A stretch of 64,000 nt of DNA, from the NCBI RefSeq assembly GCF_003150675.1, contig NZ_QGGB01000002.1:62001-126000 (forward strand), given 5' to 3'. Numbering within the stretch: the first letter of the stretch is position 1; each line of letters opens with the position of its first letter. The stretch is from Rhodohalobacter mucosus. GTDB lineage: Bacteria > Bacteroidota > Rhodothermia > Balneolales > Balneolaceae. Position numbers and translations under genes: made by a program. The notes beneath the pieces are model-generated. The model saw only the letters and a list, made by a program, of their open reading frames with translations, searched no databases and was not told the origin of the DNA. Below, one piece after another: positions 11,411 to 20,824 of the stretch.

Positions 11411-12334
11411 CTATCTGCGATTGCGGACAAGACGCCGGGTCCATGTAAGTGCCACACCCAAAACAACAACAACCATTGCGCCAATGGAGAGTATTGAGGG
11501 AACTTCACTGAATATGAGATAGGCAGCTCCCGCCGCCACCACGGCTTCAGAAAGTACCAGGGTGGAAAGAAGTGTCGGTGAGATGTATTTGACAGCATAA
11601 TTCATCGCACCATGTCCCAGAATGGTTGGTCCTGCAGCAAGGGCTATCCCCACCCATACGGCAGTCAGTGTTATTTTCGGCACTCCCGCCGTACTGACTA
11701 TGCTGAGAACGGCACAGGTAATCGTTGCGTAGAGATAGACAAAAAACACGTAGTCTATCCATTCGGTGTGCTGTCTGATTTTACGGCCCAGCAGAAAATA
11801 ACAGACAAACACAATGGCCGCAGTTATTGCCATACCGTTTCCCAGCAACGCCTGGGGAAACTGCTCCATCTGGGAATCGTCTGCCAGCCCCAAAAGAACC
11901 GACCCGCTAAAGGCCAGAAATACTCCAACCCAGACAGGAAGCCTGAATTTCTTTTTGAAAATCAGACTTTCAGCCACGATGAGCATGACAGGGTGCATCG
12001 TAACCAGAACGGAAGCTGATGCAACCGATGTATAGTGAAGAGAACCGATCCAAAATGAAAAGTGGGCTCCCAGGCTGACCCCTGCACCCGCCAGAAGCCA
12101 TTGCGAAACCCCGCTTTGTTTAAGCTCTTCCATTGAAGCGCGCTTTGCAAACCAAAAGGGAAACAGCATAAGAACGGCAAAACCGGTTCTGAGCGCTGCA
12201 AGTGCAATGGGATCGGTTTCGAGTGAAAAACGAACCAGTATAGGCGCAAACCCAAACGTAAGCATGCCTGCGGCAAGAAAAAGAACTACCTTAAGGAGTG
12301 GGGTGTCCGTATGGTTCGCGGCCGGAACAGACAC
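11411..12334 (-). CDS. DMT-superfamily (EamA) transporter
   Basis: 307 aa with about ten hydrophobic helices forming two EamA repeats, each opening with a segment like FAPILVRFSLETDP and a conserved proline/glycine pattern (TLVLSEAVVAAGAAYLIFSEVP in repeat 2). Inner-membrane drug/metabolite exporter; substrate unknown. The start is GTG at 12334, and its G is the last base of the TAG stop of the upstream DUF4293 gene, so the two are translationally coupled. A second, only distantly similar EamA gene occurs at 19925. Confidence 0.87.
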   Translation of the reverse strand: MSVPAANHTDTPLLKVVLFLAAGMLTFGFAPILVRFSLETDPIALAALRTGFAVLMLFPFWFAKRASMEELKQSGVSQWLLAGAGVSLGAHFSFWIGSLHYTSVASASVLVTMHPVMLIVAESLIFKKKFRLPVWVGVFLAFSGSVLLGLADDSQMEQFPQALLGNGMAITAAIVFVCYFLLGRKIRQHTEWIDYVFFVYLYATITCAVLSIVSTAGVPKITLTAVWVGIALAAGPTILGHGAMNYAVKYISPTLLSTLVLSEAVVAAGAAYLIFSEVPSILSIGAMVVVVLGVALTWTRRLVRNRR

Positions 12335-12741
12335 TATCGGATCCGGTCCATCGACTTCACCAGTTCTTCATCTTTTTTTATTGACCGGCCGGCCAGCCAA
12401 TAGAACATCAGAGCCAAAACAATAAGGCCGGAGCTCAAAACCTCCTGCCACAAAAATGTTCCGAATCCGCCAAGAGAAAACAGAATTCCGGCCGAAAAAC
12501 CAATTGCCACAATTTGCATGTAGGTACCTGCTTTTACAATGCGGATTTGCAGGCTTCTGTTCTGATAGAGGAATATGGCAGCTGCTGCAATCAGGAATGC
12601 CAGAGTGAGGAATATTGCAAACCCAATGCCTATCCACCCGGCCGGATCATTTACAGCATGCCGGTATATGGGAGTAAAAAAGACGGATATGTTCAGTGCT
12701 GCTGCCAGAAAAAGATAGACAGTTTGTATTCTCTGGATCAA
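12334..12741 (-). CDS. DUF4293 family membrane protein
   Basis: 135 aa with four hydrophobic helices. The N-terminus MIQRIQTVYLFLAA is characteristic of DUF4293, a family almost confined to Bacteroidota and relatives; function unknown. The only start in frame is TTG at 12741. A TAnnTTTG-like -7 element (TATTTTTG on the minus strand, 12769-12776) lies 27 nt upstream. Stop and next start share one base with the DMT exporter gene, so the pair is an operon. Confidence 0.8.
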   Translation of the reverse strand: MIQRIQTVYLFLAAALNISVFFTPIYRHAVNDPAGWIGIGFAIFLTLAFLIAAAAIFLYQNRSLQIRIVKAGTYMQIVAIGFSAGILFSLGGFGTFLWQEVLSSGLIVLALMFYWLAGRSIKKDEELVKSMDRIR

Positions 12742-12851: not shown

Positions 12852-15800
12852 TCAGGGTACGGGTTCCTCCTCCTTTGGCTTGCTCTTTTTCTCACCATTT
12901 TGATGTATCATCTCCGACTGATCAATAATTATGGCCGGATTCACGGTACCGAACATAAACCGGTTGGTACCCCGTCTTGCTTCTTCAATCATGTAGTAAA
13001 GAACCGGGACAACAATCAGGGTGAGAAATGTTGCGAATAACAGGCCGCAAATAACCGCGATGGCCATCGGACTCCACCATGCTGCTTGCTCACCGCCCCA
13101 GTACAAATATTCACCAAGATTTGTGTAGAACTCCACGGGATCGTTTGCGAGCGTAATAAAATCGAGGTTGAAACCAATGGCGAGGGGTATCAGCCCCAGT
13201 GTGGTTGTAATTGCTGTCAAAACAACCGGCCTGAAGCGAACCATTCCACCTTGTACCAGGGCATCGTACAGCTTCATCTTATCCCTGGCCCTCAAAATAT
13301 CGATGTAATCGATCATCACGATAGCATTGTTAACAACAACTCCTGCAAGCGAAATTACCCCTATACCTGTCATGATGATTCCGAACGGCATTTGAAATAT
13401 TAAGAGCCCGTACAGAACACCCGCAATCGACATGATCACCGATGTCATCACAATAAATGGTTTTGAAATTGAATTAAACTGAGATATCAGAATAAAGGCC
13501 ATAAGTCCCAGCGCAATCATAAAAGCCGTTGTAAGGAAATCCTGGGCTTCATTCTGTTCCTGCTGCTGTCCTGTCCAGCGGGTCTGAATATTTGAGGGAA
13601 GCTCCTGCAGGTATGGCTCAAGAAGCTGTTGTGCTTCCTGAAGCACAGCATTGCTGTTAAAGTTCGACCTAACATCCGCCATCACCGTAACCACCCGATC
13701 CTGATCGATGCGTTTTATCCCTCCGAATCCTTCATCCACAGTCCATTGAGCAATTTCAGAGAGCGGTATCTGCCTGCCTTCCTCTCCCATAACCGTCAGA
13801 TCATTGAGAGTGCTGAGGTCCTGCCGATATTCCTCCGCCAGCCGTACCGTAATGTCGTACTCATCATTTCCGTCGCGATACTGGGATGCTTCAACTCCGT
13901 TTATAGCCTGGCGTATGGTATTTCCAACATCGTTTGTGTTTACACCGAAAATGGAGGCCATCTCCCTGTCGACCGTAATTCTCATTTCGGGCCGCGCTTC
14001 GGGTAAGTCCGTCTCAAGGCCATCCAGCTTGCCGTAGATTGGATCATTTTCCAGAATCCGCAGAATTTCTTCGGAAATGCCCTGGAGCCCTTCAAGATCC
14101 TGACCCACAATCTCCAGGTTAATTGGTTTTCCGGTCGGCGGACCGTCTTGCTGCCGTTCCACTGTGATTTCTGCTCCGGCCAGATCCACAGGCAGAATTT
14201 CTCTCAGCTCCTCTATGGATTCGAATGTACTTCCTTCCCGCTGATTATAATCCACGAAATTCAATACAATCGTACCTCTGTTGGTTGTATTGCCCCCGCC
14301 AAAATCCATTCCGCTGGAAATGGGCGCCCCGGCCGTCGTAACCATCGTTTCAACATCACCGAAATTGTCGATAGACCTGGCACGGCGCTCCAGTTCCTCC
14401 GCAATCTGCCTTGTAAATTCCACATTGGTGCCGGGCGGAGTTTCTATCTGGGCATATACCCTGGATGGAGGAATATCCTCCGGGAAAAATTCGATCCCAT
14501 GATTGTATAGGGCAAATACCACTACACTTGAAATGAGAAGCAGAAGAGTGAGCCCAAGTACGGTAAAACGGTGTTTCAGTGACCACTTGAGTGTTGACTT
14601 ATACCGCGTAAGTACCTGGTTCAGACCCTCTTTTTGCCACCAGATACTCACCGGTTTTAGCAACAGCCTGTAACTGATTACAAGAAGTATCGATATCACG
14701 GCAAACATAATCCAGAATACCGGATTTCCAAGTGAAAGAAGAATCAGCAGCACCAAGCCAACAGAGTAGAGTACTTTTTTCCCTGAAGATGTAAGGGCTG
14801 CCTTGGTTCCCGTATCCGTCGTCTCCAGCTTCATGAAAACCGCACAAAGAACCGGATTTATCACCAGTCCCACAAAAAGTGAACTGCTCAGCGTAATGAT
14901 CAGCGTAATGGGCAGATACGACATGAAATCGCCCACGATACCGGGCCAAAAAGCAATGGGAAGAAATGCTGCCAGGGTTGTCGTGGTGCCCGCAATAATC
15001 GGCATGGCTACCTCACCGGTTCCTTTCTTAGCCGCTTCAAAGTTCCCGAAGCCCTCTTCCAGATACCTGAAAATATTCTCAACTACAACAATTGCATTGT
15101 CAACCAGCATACCAAGCGCAAGGATGAGTGAGAAAAGTACAATCATATTCATCGTTATGCCGGCGAATTGAAGAATCACAAACGACATAAACATCGACAA
15201 TGGAATCGAAATACCAACAAATGACGCATTTCTGACCCCCAGGAAAAAGAAGAGAACGCCAATGACCAGCAATAAGCCCGAAATGATATTATTCTCGAGA
15301 CTGCTGACCATCATTTCGATATCCTCACTCATATCCGATGTAACCCGAATTTCCGTAGACGGCGGCATAGAAGGACGTTCTCTCGCGATAATCTGCTGAA
15401 CGGCCTGTGAGGTTTCAATGATGTTGGTTCCGGTTCGTTTCTTAACTGATAGGGTAATAACGGGAGCGCTGTCGAGGTACGCATAGGATTCCCTCTCCTT
15501 TTCGCCGAACGTTACCGTTGCCACATCCCGGATATAGATAGGACGATCATTTGGTGCATCAATAATAATATCTTCGATGGGTCCGGGGTCATCATACTCG
15601 CCGGGTACACGCATTAGAAATTTACGGTTCCCCACATCCACCGTTCCCGCAGGTATCGTTACATTTTCGTTTTGAATGGCAACGATGATATCTCCAAATG
15701 AGACACCGTAGTATTTCATCATCTGCAGGTCAACATCAACCTGGACCTCCTTTTCCAGTCCGCCGGCCAGATCCACTTCCAGCACCTGCGGAATGGTTTC

Positions 15801-16355
15801 CAGCCTTTCCTGCAGGTCTTCGGCAACCACTTTCAGCTCTTCCAGGCCATACGTACCCGATACATTCACCTGCATAATGGGAAATTCAGACACGTTGATC
15901 TCCTCAATCATCGGGTCCTCTGCCTCTGCAGGCAGTTCGGGTTTTGCCAGGTCGACTTTCTCCCTCACTTTTTGAAGGGCTTCATCAATATTCACATCCG
16001 TATTGAATTCAACGTTGATGCTAGAGTACCCTTCAGCAGTTGTAGAGGTCATCTGCTTGATGTCGGATATGCCCGATAGTTCTTCTTCAAGTTTACGGGT
16101 AATCAGGGCTTCCATATCCACCGGACTAACCCCCGGGTAGGTTGTAATAACGATCACATTCGGGATGGTAATATCCGGCTGTGCCTCCTTGGGAATGGTC
16201 ATGTACGATTGGATCCCCATGACGGCAATCAGGAAAATCAGAACCAATACGCTGATCCTGTTATCGATTGAGAAAGAGGTAAGCCTGAACTCTTTGCGTT
16301 CCCCGATGGATTCATCAGACTTTTTAACAGGTGAATTTTTAGGATTCTCGTTCAT
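12852..16355 (-). CDS. RND efflux permease (HAE1-type, modified proton relay)
   Basis: 1167 aa, longer than AcrB (1049). Typical RND layout: TM1 near 30-50, large periplasmic loop, TM2-6, second half duplicated. Two extra hydrophobic segments (about 530-570) lie between the halves, and the last periplasmic loop before the final helices carries an insertion rich in aromatic residues (EYLYWGGEQAAWW). The TM4 relay motif reads GMLVDNAIVVVEN (about residue 418-419), so the second Asp of AcrB (Asp408) is Asn, and the TM10 motif reads VVVNNAIVMID, so the Lys940 equivalent is Asn. Third structural gene of the tetR-tolC-adaptor-permease operon. Confidence 0.9.
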   Translation of the reverse strand: MNENPKNSPVKKSDESIGERKEFRLTSFSIDNRISVLVLIFLIAVMGIQSYMTIPKEAQPDITIPNVIVITTYPGVSPVDMEALITRKLEEELSGISDIKQMTSTTAEGYSSINVEFNTDVNIDEALQKVREKVDLAKPELPAEAEDPMIEEINVSEFPIMQVNVSGTYGLEELKVVAEDLQERLETIPQVLEVDLAGGLEKEVQVDVDLQMMKYYGVSFGDIIVAIQNENVTIPAGTVDVGNRKFLMRVPGEYDDPGPIEDIIIDAPNDRPIYIRDVATVTFGEKERESYAYLDSAPVITLSVKKRTGTNIIETSQAVQQIIARERPSMPPSTEIRVTSDMSEDIEMMVSSLENNIISGLLLVIGVLFFFLGVRNASFVGISIPLSMFMSFVILQFAGITMNMIVLFSLILALGMLVDNAIVVVENIFRYLEEGFGNFEAAKKGTGEVAMPIIAGTTTTLAAFLPIAFWPGIVGDFMSYLPITLIITLSSSLFVGLVINPVLCAVFMKLETTDTGTKAALTSSGKKVLYSVGLVLLILLSLGNPVFWIMFAVISILLVISYRLLLKPVSIWWQKEGLNQVLTRYKSTLKWSLKHRFTVLGLTLLLLISSVVVFALYNHGIEFFPEDIPPSRVYAQIETPPGTNVEFTRQIAEELERRARSIDNFGDVETMVTTAGAPISSGMDFGGGNTTNRGTIVLNFVDYNQREGSTFESIEELREILPVDLAGAEITVERQQDGPPTGKPINLEIVGQDLEGLQGISEEILRILENDPIYGKLDGLETDLPEARPEMRITVDREMASIFGVNTNDVGNTIRQAINGVEASQYRDGNDEYDITVRLAEEYRQDLSTLNDLTVMGEEGRQIPLSEIAQWTVDEGFGGIKRIDQDRVVTVMADVRSNFNSNAVLQEAQQLLEPYLQELPSNIQTRWTGQQQEQNEAQDFLTTAFMIALGLMAFILISQFNSISKPFIVMTSVIMSIAGVLYGLLIFQMPFGIIMTGIGVISLAGVVVNNAIVMIDYIDILRARDKMKLYDALVQGGMVRFRPVVLTAITTTLGLIPLAIGFNLDFITLANDPVEFYTNLGEYLYWGGEQAAWWSPMAIAVICGLLFATFLTLIVVPVLYYMIEEARRGTNRFMFGTVNPAIIIDQSEMIHQNGEKKSKPKEEEPVP

Positions 16356-16383
16356 TGTATTATTCTCTTTTTCTGAACCTGTA

Positions 16384-17463
16384 TTAATTTAGAGCGGTGC
16401 TCTCGCTGTCCCGGTTTTCCACGGTGTTGATTCGCGTTCCGTTTTCCAGGTATGATGATCCTATGGTAATCAGTACATCACCCGGATTGATTCCGTTGGT
16501 GACCACCGTTTGATTTTCAAACGAAGGGCCCATCTGAATCTCTCTTTCGACGGCAATTTTCTCTCCCTGATCATTACTTCCCTCCACGTACACGACGTAC
16601 CTGTTCTCCTTCTGAAAGAGGAACTCTTCATTCACTATCATTACATCTTCCATGTACTGGGTTCTTATCCGCACGTTCGCGATCATTTCAAGCTTAACGT
16701 TCTGCAACTCTTCCGGCAGGTCGATATCCACCCTGAATGTTCGATTCATAGGGTCTATTGTATTTCCAATAAATGTGACCGGCAGCGTGTATCTCTTATC
16801 GGGCTCATAGTTGAACCAGATTTCGGCCATATCACCCATATCAACGGCATTGGAATACCTTGCGGGTACACCCAGCCTTATTTTTTTCTCTTCCCCATCC
16901 ACAATTCTGAATACAGGAGATCCAATAGAAACCATGGATCCCTGTTCGGCAAGTACATTTTCTATCGTGCCGGAAAATGGTGCTTTGATAACACTGTTCT
17001 CAAGATTGATTCTGGCCGATTCAAGCTGTGAGAGATTTTGCTCATAGGTATAGCGTGCATTGATCACGTCAATCTCCGAGCCAATATCATCATTCTCAAA
17101 CAGGCGCTGGAGTCGTTCGTAGTTTTCCCGCGACTGGTTGGTGGCGGCTTCCAGGCGTCTCACTTCCTGACGCAGCTGGCGGTTGTCGAGCCTCACAACG
17201 GGTTCTCCGGACCGGACATCCTGCCCCTCCCTTCTGATCACCTCATCCACCACACCCGAAACTTCGGCAGCAACGATTACATCCCCTGTAGAGGTGACCG
17301 TTCCCACCTGTCTCAGGTAGCTCTCAAATAATTCTGGTTGCAGCATCTCGGTTTCCACATCTACGGTGCGCACCTCTCTTTCAGTTACTTCTGCCTGTTC
17401 TGTGCAAGAACTCGCACCCAGCAGGATTGTCAGTATTATCAGCGCGAAGGTATTCGTTTTCAT
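16384..17463 (-). CDS. RND efflux periplasmic adaptor (membrane fusion protein)
   Basis: 359 aa from ATG 17463. Lipoprotein signal with lipobox ASSC, then barrel-sandwich/lipoyl half (GTVTSTGDVIVAAEVSG), a helical hairpin (RRLEAATNQSRENYERLQ), second lipoyl half (APFSGTIENVLAEQGSMV) and beta-barrel and membrane-proximal domains. It bridges the RND permease (28 nt downstream) and the TolC-like channel gene (just upstream). The open frame extends to a GTG at 17490 and an ATG at 17472; I prefer 17463 because it gives a normal lipoprotein signal. Confidence 0.88.
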   Translation of the reverse strand: MKTNTFALIILTILLGASSCTEQAEVTEREVRTVDVETEMLQPELFESYLRQVGTVTSTGDVIVAAEVSGVVDEVIRREGQDVRSGEPVVRLDNRQLRQEVRRLEAATNQSRENYERLQRLFENDDIGSEIDVINARYTYEQNLSQLESARINLENSVIKAPFSGTIENVLAEQGSMVSIGSPVFRIVDGEEKKIRLGVPARYSNAVDMGDMAEIWFNYEPDKRYTLPVTFIGNTIDPMNRTFRVDIDLPEELQNVKLEMIANVRIRTQYMEDVMIVNEEFLFQKENRYVVYVEGSNDQGEKIAVEREIQMGPSFENQTVVTNGINPGDVLITIGSSYLENGTRINTVENRDSESTALN

Positions 17464-17494
17464 CTTTTCCATTGAAAATATCAGTTTCACTTAC

Positions 17495-18991
17495 TTAAAA
17501 TTCATAGTCTGTTTCATCAATCATTGGAACCAGGCCCAATGCAAGGTCAAAGTCTGCTTTTGTATTCAAATAGTCTGCAACAAGAGATGCGTAATTTAGT
17601 TCTGCTTCACGAACCTGCAGTTCTGCCTCCGTTACCTCAAGCTGAGACCCGACTCCGTTTTCATATCTTCTGAGGGCAATCTCCAGTCCTCTTTTAGCTT
17701 CTTCAACTGCAAACTGTCTCGAATCGGCTGTCTCTCTCAGATTCGTCAGCCTGTCTGAAGTGGTCTCGTATTCATTCATGGCCGTTTTTTCACTGGCCCA
17801 CGTCTGCACCTCTATATCTCTCTTTTCTATCTGGGCAATGTTCAGATTGGCTCTCCTTTCAAAGCCTGTAAAAAGCGGCAGGCTAACATTCAGCACCAAT
17901 GTCTGAAATCGCACACTGTTTTCGAAAGGTCTTGGTGTACCGGGCTGTGCTGCGGTCCACTGAAGGTTATAGTCTGCAGAAATGGTGGGCAAAAATCTGC
18001 TTTTAATCGCAAGGATTTCGCGGTCTTTTAAATCGTTTTGTACGTCGAGCACTCTCAGGTCTCCTCTCTGATTTCGCATCATATCAATCACCTCCTGGCG
18101 TTCAAGGTCAGGAAGAGGCGTTGCCGCCGTGAGTCTGTAGAGGCTTTCATTTTCATTCTGTGAATCACCGTTGCGGAGAAGATTAAAGCTGCTCAAACTT
18201 CCAACCGCCTCAAGCGGAGTGTCTACCGGGAGGCCCATTATTTCGTTAAGGCTCCGATATGCCTCCTGAACACCCAATTCGGCATCTTTCAGCTGTGGTT
18301 CCTCATTGGCCAATTGTACCTCAAGCCGCAGTACATCATACTCCTCTATTAACCCTTCACGCAGCCTTGCCCTGTTTTCACGGAGGTTTGAGCGCAGCCG
18401 GTCAATAACGGCCTTCTGCAAACGCAACTGTTCCTTTGCAATCAGTACAGCATGAAATCCCTTTCGGGCGGCAGTAATTACCTGCTGTGCCACATTTCTC
18501 AGGCTCTCTTCCTGGGCAGATTTAAACAGGGATGAACTGCTGATCCCGACAATCGCTTCGCCCCTGAAAATATTCTGAGAAACGGTTACTCCCCCCTGCC
18601 AGTTGTTATCCGTTCCGAACTGCAGCGGAATGAGTTCTCCGGCAGGCGCATTCGGATCAAATACCTGTGCAGGCACGAAGTTGACCGGTATTTCAATATT
18701 TCTGGTGTACGTTGCAGAGGAGGATACGGTTGGCAGGACCTCACTCCATGCAATTCTGACCTGTTCGTCAGCATTTTCAATCGACAGAAGGGCCCGTTTT
18801 ATATCCGGGTTGTTGGCTACTGCGAGCTGAACAGCCTGTTCTGCGGTAATTCTGGCCTGCTCAGGAAGCTGTACCGTAATATCCTGTGCAGTAAGCGGCC
18901 GCAATAGAAATACAAGTGTCAGCAGTATTGAGATTGCCGCTAACCGGAATGGTAATTGTATCGTTTTGTGTGTCAGAACTGACATGATCAT
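17495..18991 (-). CDS. TolC-family outer-membrane efflux channel
   Basis: 498 aa. Signal peptide ending near LTAQ (about 33-36), then two OEP repeats of long helices and strands (ITAEQAVQLAVANNPDIK, GISSSSLF; second repeat VEEAKRGLEIALRRYENG and VTEAELQVREAELNYA). Forms the outer-membrane exit duct for the adjacent adaptor and permease. It follows tetR by 74 nt. A TetR-like box (19070-19084) overlaps the tetR stop just upstream, so this gene may have an additional regulated start point. Confidence 0.88.
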   Translation of the reverse strand: MIMSVLTHKTIQLPFRLAAISILLTLVFLLRPLTAQDITVQLPEQARITAEQAVQLAVANNPDIKRALLSIENADEQVRIAWSEVLPTVSSSATYTRNIEIPVNFVPAQVFDPNAPAGELIPLQFGTDNNWQGGVTVSQNIFRGEAIVGISSSSLFKSAQEESLRNVAQQVITAARKGFHAVLIAKEQLRLQKAVIDRLRSNLRENRARLREGLIEEYDVLRLEVQLANEEPQLKDAELGVQEAYRSLNEIMGLPVDTPLEAVGSLSSFNLLRNGDSQNENESLYRLTAATPLPDLERQEVIDMMRNQRGDLRVLDVQNDLKDREILAIKSRFLPTISADYNLQWTAAQPGTPRPFENSVRFQTLVLNVSLPLFTGFERRANLNIAQIEKRDIEVQTWASEKTAMNEYETTSDRLTNLRETADSRQFAVEEAKRGLEIALRRYENGVGSQLEVTEAELQVREAELNYASLVADYLNTKADFDLALGLVPMIDETDYEF

Positions 18992-19065
18992 TCTTATTGT
19001 GACCCGGATTTTCTTTTTATTAAAAACATGTATGATTTACGAATCATGATCCGGATGGTTTCAAA

Positions 19066-19734
19066 TTATTTTGACTGTGAGTCATTTGACTGGAGCCCCG
19101 CTCCTATGAGTGTAATGAAGTTTTCAAGCAGGGAGTCAAGACTGAAGGAAACGTCATCCAATATTTTCATATGAGCCCTGCTCTCCTTCAGAAACGCCAT
19201 GTGGACCACACCTTTTGAAGCACCCCAGATAATCAGCCCCATCTCTCTGGGCTCAATGGTACTTTTAATGGAGCCGTCCTGCATGCCAACCTGGAGGGCA
19301 CGTACAATGTAGGCCATTGCTTCACGGGCATGATTCTCACACTTAGCGGCCAGCCTGCTCTGCGAGAGGTTGTCATCATCCATCAATGTTTCATAAAACG
19401 TAAAGGCTGAAAAATAGATAGGATGCTCCTTAATAAATTCCAGGTATGCAAAACCCAGTTTTTTCACCATTTCAATGCCTTTAACATCATCCGTGAGTAC
19501 TTTGCTCATTTGCTTATTCAGAAGCGATGATCCGCGTTCACAGATTGCCAGAAAGATTGAGGATTTGCTCTTGAAGTGCAGATAGAGGGTACCTTTACCA
19601 AGCTCTGCCTGCTCGGCAACTTCGTCCATTGTGGCACCGTCGAAACCCTTTTCTGAAAAGAGATCTTCGGCTGTGTCAATAATAAGTTCGCGGCGGGCAA
19701 GTTTTTCCCGCTCTTTCCTGCTAATTTTAGCCAT
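19066..19734 (-). CDS. TetR/AcrR-family transcriptional repressor of the efflux operon
   Basis: 222 aa. N-terminal TetR helix-turn-helix (about 14-60: ELIIDTAEDLFSEKGFDG, TMDEVAEQAELGKGTLYLHF) and an all-helical ligand domain. It is the first gene of a minus-strand unit with tolC, adaptor and RND permease, so it most likely represses this pump and is released by a substrate. Two copies of a TGACT-N3-AGTCA-type palindrome lie between its promoter and start codon (19738-19768) and a third at its 3' end, fitting autoregulation. Confidence 0.9.
   Translation of the reverse strand: MAKISRKEREKLARRELIIDTAEDLFSEKGFDGATMDEVAEQAELGKGTLYLHFKSKSSIFLAICERGSSLLNKQMSKVLTDDVKGIEMVKKLGFAYLEFIKEHPIYFSAFTFYETLMDDDNLSQSRLAAKCENHAREAMAYIVRALQVGMQDGSIKSTIEPREMGLIIWGASKGVVHMAFLKESRAHMKILDDVSFSLDSLLENFITLIGAGLQSNDSQSK
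19070..19084. promoter_or_regulatory. Third TetR-type operator copy at the tetR/tolC junction
   Basis: TTTGACTGTGAGTCA, identical at 13 of 15 positions to the operator at 19736-19750. It overlaps the last codons of tetR and lies about 80 nt upstream of tolC. Because it is partly coding it could be coincidence, but the repeat of the full 15-mer argues for a real site. Confidence 0.5.
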
Positions 19735-19737
19735 ATT

Positions 19738-19768
19738 TGACTGACAGTCATTTTATGAATCAGAGTCA
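19738..19768. promoter_or_regulatory. Tandem TetR operators
   Basis: Two boxes 18 nt apart: TGACTGACAGTCA (19738-19750, perfect palindrome around the central A) and TGAATCAGAGTCA (19756-19768). Consensus TGAnT-N3-AGTCA. They sit just before the tetR start codon, and the second touches the -7 element, a position suited to repression by the TetR protein. Confidence 0.7.
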
Positions 19769-19799
19769 AAACTATCATTATTCCTGATTAGTTCCCAAA
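19767..19799 (-). promoter_or_regulatory. Promoter of the tetR-tolC-adaptor-RND operon
   Basis: On the minus strand TTTG (19796-19799), 21-nt spacer, TAGTTTTG (19767-19774), matching the Bacteroidota TTTG / TAnnTTTG pattern. Start site predicted near 19760, within the operator pair. Confidence 0.6.
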
Positions 19800-19924: not shown

Positions 19925-20824
19925 ATGAAAAAAATTTCACCCCAACTCCTTACCGACCTATCGCTTCTCTTTATTGCCGTTGTCTGGGCTTTAAATTTTA
20001 CCGTAATCAAAGCAAGTTTATCCGAGATAGATCCTTACAGCTTTAATGCTATCCGGTTCACACTGGCCTCTTCATTTATCTGGCTGGTGCTTGCCAAACG
20101 AAAAGCCTGGTTTACGATACCCAAAGGAGATATCCTCCCCCTTTTGGGTATGGGGCTTGCAGGTAATCTTCTGTATCAATGGCTCTTTATTGTAGGAATA
20201 GACCTCACACTGGCTGCCAACGCGGCCGTTATGCTGGGTACCATCCCCATTTGGGTAGCTCTTTTCTCTCATCTGCTTTCCATGGAGTTTATGAATCGCC
20301 TGAAAGGTGTGGGTGTGCTCCTGGCATTTTTGGGCGTATTGATGATCATTTTTTTCGCCAAAAACCCGATTTCGTTCGAGTCTGAAAACTTTACCGGTGA
20401 TTTGGTGATCATTACGGCAGCCATGGTATGGGCTCTTTATACCATTTATTCAAAAAAATTCCTTGGCCGCTACACTCCTCTTCAGTATTCGACGATCATG
20501 ACAACAGTCGGAGCCATTTCACTTGCACTGCTTGCCATTCCGCAGGCCGGGGCAACGGATTGGTCGGCTGTATCACTGGCATCATACGCAGGAGCCGGGT
20601 TCAGCGGACTGCTTGCGATCGGGGTCGCATATTTGATCTGGAATAACGGTATTCGAACGGTGGGAGCGGTCAGAACGGCAACCTATCAGAACCTGGTGCC
20701 TGTTCTGGGACTGTTTTTTGGAATTCTGTTGCTTGGCGAAAGCCTGGAACTTCTTCAGTATTTGGGTTCAGGCGTGGTTATCGCCGGCATTCTTATTACG
20801 AGGCACGGGGGCAGAGTATCGTAA
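19925..20824 (+). CDS. DMT-superfamily (EamA) transporter
   Basis: 299 aa, about ten membrane helices in two EamA repeats (VVWALNFTVIKASLSEIDP in the first, AMVWALYTIYSKKFLGRYTP in the second). Inner-membrane exporter of unknown small molecules, RhaT/YdcZ-like group. Divergent from the efflux repressor with a 190-nt shared control region that holds the TetR operators, so co-control by TetR is possible but unproven. Convergent with pyrB. Confidence 0.88.
   Translation: MKKISPQLLTDLSLLFIAVVWALNFTVIKASLSEIDPYSFNAIRFTLASSFIWLVLAKRKAWFTIPKGDILPLLGMGLAGNLLYQWLFIVGIDLTLAANAAVMLGTIPIWVALFSHLLSMEFMNRLKGVGVLLAFLGVLMIIFFAKNPISFESENFTGDLVIITAAMVWALYTIYSKKFLGRYTPLQYSTIMTTVGAISLALLAIPQAGATDWSAVSLASYAGAGFSGLLAIGVAYLIWNNGIRTVGAVRTATYQNLVPVLGLFFGILLLGESLELLQYLGSGVVIAGILITRHGGRVS

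Follow-up and report, generated by a model that had tools for sequence, protein, structure and literature searches.

A TetR-type repressor with a conserved set of predicted operators above RND efflux pumps that appear to have been exchanged

The window, that is the whole stretch of 64 kb of DNA analysed here, carries on its minus strand, in this order, a tetR gene, a tolC-type gene, an RND adaptor gene and an RND permease gene, with an EamA gene at 19925 that diverges from tetR. Among relatives the tolC-adaptor-RND block occurs in two distant and mutually exclusive types, A and B, between the same flanks. Common to both pump types are pyrB, usually eamA and then tetR on one side, and DUF4293 followed by a second EamA gene on the opposite side. 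The features of the window are given below, the operator boxes O1 to O3 without a strand.

11411 to 12334, minus strand: second EamA gene (EamA2, Pfam), a conserved flank with the same location in loci of both pump types
12334 to 12741, minus strand: DUF4293 gene (Pfam), the conserved far-side flank, likewise with one location whether the locus is of type A or type B
12852 to 16355, minus strand: RND permease of type A, 1167 amino acids (Pfam ACR_tran, E=7e-206)
16384 to 17490, minus strand: RND periplasmic adaptor of type A (NCBIfam RND_mfp, 185 bits, above the cut-off)
17495 to 18991, minus strand: tolC-type outer-membrane channel of type A (Pfam OEP, E=8e-54)
19000 to 19004, minus strand: O4, a possible and weak half-site GGTCA, 67 bases past O3
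19038 to 19062, minus strand: ECF-like pump promoter, GAAAC-N16-CGTA, between O3 and tolC
19066 to 19734, minus strand: tetR, a TetR/AcrR-type repressor of 222 amino acids with the recognition helix GKGTLYLHF
19072 to 19084: O3, predicted operator, TGACTGTGAGTCA, the exact word within the last tetR codons, about 80 bp upstream of tolC
19738 to 19750: O1, proximal predicted operator, TGACTGACAGTCA, an exact TGACT-N3-AGTCA, 3 bp upstream of the tetR ATG
19756 to 19768: O2, outer predicted operator, TGAATCAGAGTCA, with one mismatch to the word
19767 to 19799, minus strand: predicted tetR promoter, TTTG (19796-19799), N21, TAGTTTTG (19767-19774)
19925 to 20824, plus strand: divergent EamA transporter (Pfam EamA, E=2e-42), a neighbour in most relatives

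An OEP channel, an HlyD-type adaptor and an ACR_tran permease thus stand together in one operon, which places the pump among the RND tripartite systems, and export is predicted. The regulator has an N-terminal TetR_N helix-turn-helix domain (Pfam PF00440, 63 bits for a cut-off of 24, E=2e-17), and its C-terminal part scores 21.8 bits with TetR_C_13, for which the Pfam cut-off is 27. AcrR, SmeT and MtrR are TetR-family repressors of RND pumps, and all three share with the TetR of the window the TetR_N domain, the adjoining RND pump genes and (here predicted) operators at the repressor's own promoter and at that of the pump. In contrast to these systems, tetR and pump are codirectional in the window, not divergent, and one of the predicted operators is internal, located at the tetR stop. 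The protein is not orthologous to AcrR or MtrR, as it reaches 39 bits with the AcrR equivalog of NCBIfam (cut-off 271) and 39.5 bits with that of MtrR (cut-off 280); SmeT appears only as a distant PDB match. Weak full-length matches concern the RutR equivalog (54.5 bits, cut-off 368) and the Bacillus FadR equivalog (44.6 bits, cut-off 200) of NCBIfam. The half-sites of RutR start with TGACC and those of FadR with TGA, but operator spacing and targets of both differ from those of the present system. With all four scores far under the NCBIfam cut-offs, a classification as AcrR, MtrR, RutR or FadR equivalog was rejected.

Read along the tetR strand, the control region consists of TTTG-N21-TAGTTTTG, O2 (TGACTCTGATTCA), 5 bp, O1 (TGACTGTCAGTCA) and the ATG, with O3 (TGACTCACAGTCA) at the far end; the 5 bp between O2 and O1 correspond to a distance of 18 bp from centre to centre. 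A preliminary description of this DNA had reported three such boxes at 19738-19750, 19756-19768 and 19072-19084, and these coordinates are exact. The TGACT-N3-AGTCA that it read in the first box is indeed perfect and is so in the third box as well, the second one having one mismatch; 13 of 15 bases are indeed common to the first and the third, over TTGACT..AGTCAT. Likewise, the promoter-like sequence at 19767-19799 that it had read as a Bacteroidota promoter is present as described. Two of its statements need some correction. Of the two boxes said to lie between this promoter and the tetR start, O1 does so and O2 overlaps the -7 element by 2 bases. The third box has its place at the tetR end before tolC, as described, but inside the last tetR codons and not merely beside the gene. 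By sequence and conservation, the palindromic O1 and O2 overlap tetR's own predicted promoter, as in the TetR family. The aligned relatives also have a conserved GGAAC (19791-19795) 16 bp before the -7 box of the tetR promoter. Such a GGAAC 16 bp before TANNTTT is hardly found elsewhere in the genome; GGAAC-N16-TANNTTTG was rejected as a general promoter class, there being two in the genome (one of them at tetR) and three in the control.

The exact word TGACYNNNRGTCA is found twice in the 64-kb window, as O1 and O3, against an expectation of 0.23 (sd 0.47). Two of 100 shuffles of the window reach two exact words; both real copies are at tetR. A search that tolerates two mismatches shows no enrichment of the word in the window (16 against 24), and the case for the operators therefore rests on the position of the boxes and on their conservation.

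This conservation was followed in the 30 nearest tetR orthologues, which are 41–100 % identical at the protein level and occupy the same genomic place. O1, O2 and O3 recur at the same positions in 30 of the 30 loci, O2 being missing or degenerate in two. A mismatch-tolerant scan, which is the fair count (invariant positions of a matrix are partly forced by the search pattern), finds a single mismatch in O1 of one locus and in O3 of another. The O2 word, TGACYNNNRTTCA, is located exactly 18 bp from O1 in 28 of the 30 loci. Of 28 congeners, 25 have the double word O2-O1 in a single copy and none has two; it always stands at a tetR of the window type, and its reversed control scores 0 in the congeneric genomes. 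Measured from the tetR stop, the position of O3 ranges between -33 and -2 across the 30 loci. Since the O3 word remains constant while the end of tetR moves, it is apparently the DNA word that is kept and not the tail of the protein. An RGTCA half-site (O4) follows 67–69 bases past O3 in 19 of the 30 loci.

Two further observations concern the arrangement of the boxes. In many loci across many genera the TGA stop of tetR coincides with the first three bases of O3 (L004, L011, L022, L027, L094, L095, L098, L099, L102, L103, L109, L144, L164 and L165). In addition, some relatives possess a second TetR/RND locus (L106 and L107; also L090, L100 and L108) with the variant boxes TGATCNTCAGTCA and TGACTGAGAGTTA, which are 18 bp apart in two of the loci.

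A phylum search provided 42 further TetR loci (28–57 % identity). The exact word is present in 36 of them, at most 200 bp upstream of the tetR start or just inside the gene, whereas five control words reach 3, 0, 4, 0 and 0 in the same 42 loci. It also accompanies distant TetR relatives from Aminicenantes, KSB1 and Cyclobacteriaceae assemblies. Conversely, the word is absent from the loci of TetRs with a SRGLLYVYF or SRSLLYVYF recognition helix, and none of 17 unrelated TetRs of other types in named genomes has it. That helix and word vary together is the best evidence at hand, drawn from sequence comparison, that TetR itself would read the boxes. The earlier proposal, in which TetR regulates itself and, via a specific word, the adjoining tolC-adaptor-RND pump as well, is thus upheld by the conservation of the boxes and their recurrence across the phylum, and a predicted autoregulated repressor-operator set of the TetR/RND kind is strongly supported by sequence comparison.

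At the pump itself, GNAAC-N16/17-CGTA is found in 30 of 30 tolC leaders (with a spacer of 16 bases in 28 loci and of 17 in two), shuffled leaders containing it in 0.17 loci on average. In all 30 loci O3 ends 6–11 bases before the -35-like element. We take this motif to resemble the promoters of ECF sigma factors, its -35 and -10 having been assigned by consensus matching alone, and the pump promoter looks like a candidate for such a factor. As O3 is situated upstream of the presumed -35, repression would be less direct there than at O2 and O1. Genome-wide, TGNAACA-N15-CGTA occurs 10 times, compared to once in the control. About four of the 10 copies precede a gene by 10–120 bp, and one of these genes codes for a lipoprotein resembling an RND adaptor.

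The preliminary description had also expected that the word would reveal a wider regulon, possibly including the divergent EamA gene, and neither expectation was confirmed. The source genome contains six exact words in 3.9 Mb, compared to 14 for the reversed control; two are at the tetR locus, two inside genes and two intergenic, and the word upstream of a P-type ATPase gene is absent from the orthologues of that gene in relatives. The search for a clustering of the word in the genome thus found a random density, which counts against a regulon but not against local operators, and the wider regulon was rejected. Because the genomic words are few and the ATPase box is not conserved, the TetR looks like a local repressor. 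As for EamA, its control would be predicted from the 190-bp gap that separates it from tetR, in line with the “<200 bp” rule for divergent TetR control derived from Streptomyces (PMC3511530). Several relatives keep O1 and O2 although EamA does not adjoin tetR, the distance between boxes and EamA ranges from 89 to 1048 bp among relatives, and a word near the EamA start is absent in 18 of 19 EamA upstream regions. There is thus no positive evidence for EamA as a target, and given that no conserved word exists at its start it was set aside, although with the 190-bp gap it may still be controlled.

While the control region is constant, the pump is not. The type A permease of the window is 77–79 % identical to those of three congeners. 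Type B permeases measure about 1262–1284 amino acids and are 35–47 % identical to type A, and the type B TolC is 26 % identical. The closest relatives of the window in TetR and flanks carry type B, but the block of the window (12852-18991) is type A, and the RND tree places it with the type A congeners at 100 %. In AU tests, a grouping of the window with its type A pump-mates is rejected for TetR (p=0.005) and for the flanks pyrB, EamA2 and DUF4293 (p=0.003), as is the grouping with the type A congeners for the flanks plus TetR (p=0.0004). With pyrB alone the rejection is marginal (p=0.039), and with EamA2 alone the grouping is not rejected (p=0.148). Since TetR and flanks group with type B but the pump is type A, pumps would have been exchanged in place, presumably by recombination. 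Well supported branches of a 54-row TetR tree force at least four changes of type, but five A rows in it correspond to a more distant paralogous pump and three changes are the safer number for the locus proper. On these trees, the three-gene pump is exchanged several times beneath a constant regulator and its sites. In situ gene displacement within operons is presented as a known process in a passage of PMC2783167 that cites Omelchenko 2003. According to this passage, there too distant homologues replace genes while the operon structure stays; here it is the three-gene pump that is replaced as a block, and repressor, operators and promoter stay.

The reading that we consider very probable is that a local TetR represses itself through O2 and O1 and the pump through O3, and that this cassette has remained fixed over exchanged pumps. 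Binding, repression, ligand and sigma factor are what we infer in the following scheme. TetR dimers on O2 and O1 would cover the tetR transcription start and thereby repress tetR, and dimers on O3, beside the pump promoter, would keep expression of the tolC-adaptor-RND operon low; the O3-bound repressor could stand in the way of polymerase or act jointly with O4. The repressor would be freed by a ligand, which is probably one of the substrates of the pump, so that pump and repressor rise together. As the pump promoter is ECF-like, envelope stress may perhaps be needed as well. Repressor, operators and promoter would form a fixed control cassette beneath which whole tripartite pumps are exchanged.

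Other explanations can be envisaged for the boxes. The lack of enrichment of the mismatched word in the window is what one would expect of chance palindromes or of a by-product of coding, but the boxes keep their positions and spacing in 30 relatives and recur across the phylum, which leaves this idea a negligible probability; conservation has already refuted it. It is also very improbable that the boxes are read by a further member of the family and not by the TetR of the window. Some relatives do have a related second TetR with similar boxes beside another RND pump (L106, L107), but the source genome has one further TetR match only, 22 % identical to the window TetR, and the double word is only found beside a window-type tetR. 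Finally, TetR could mainly activate the pump from O3, upstream of the promoter, and use O1 and O2 for autorepression. The constant proximity of O3 to the -35-like element (6–11 bases in 30 of 30 loci) and the overlap of O2 with the tetR -7 element would both suit such a dual role, which we nevertheless regard as improbable: the distance between O3 and the -35 varies over 5 bases, unlike what contact activation would entail, and TetR-family regulators of pumps are mostly repressors (PMC3511530).

The distribution of the two pump types could, in turn, go back to an ancestor in which the two pumps were neighbours, followed by differential loss, in line with the age of both types, which extend across several families of the order. 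Such a history would require several parallel losses and seems unlikely, as A and B occur together in no genome searched: B is missing from six A genomes, and the B genomes searched yielded no high-scoring A copy.

Taken as a TetR-controlled RND pump, the predicted system is of an ordinary kind, and the comparative evidence for its operators is unusually strong. It represents a clear case of a conserved control region beneath which a three-gene pump has been exchanged several times, and exchange under constant control renders directly testable what the conserved repressor senses. A more far-reaching reading, possible but somewhat doubtful in its entirety, is that a phylum-wide TetR clade with a (S/A)KG(T/S)LY helix reads TGACYNNNRGTCA, that the locus is an order-level socket for pumps swapped by recombination, and that ECF transcription is gated at O3 and O4 flanking the promoter. 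In the papers searched none of six exact words was found, nor did literature searches give anything on point for TetR operators in this group. The word would thus be an operator word for a clade of pump repressors that is large and apparently undescribed, and would allow a prediction of targets from sequence in a phylum for which regulatory data are scarce. In one type B relative (genome G028, locus L046, 10423-11999), a further RND adaptor and permease follow directly in the place that DUF4293 takes in others.
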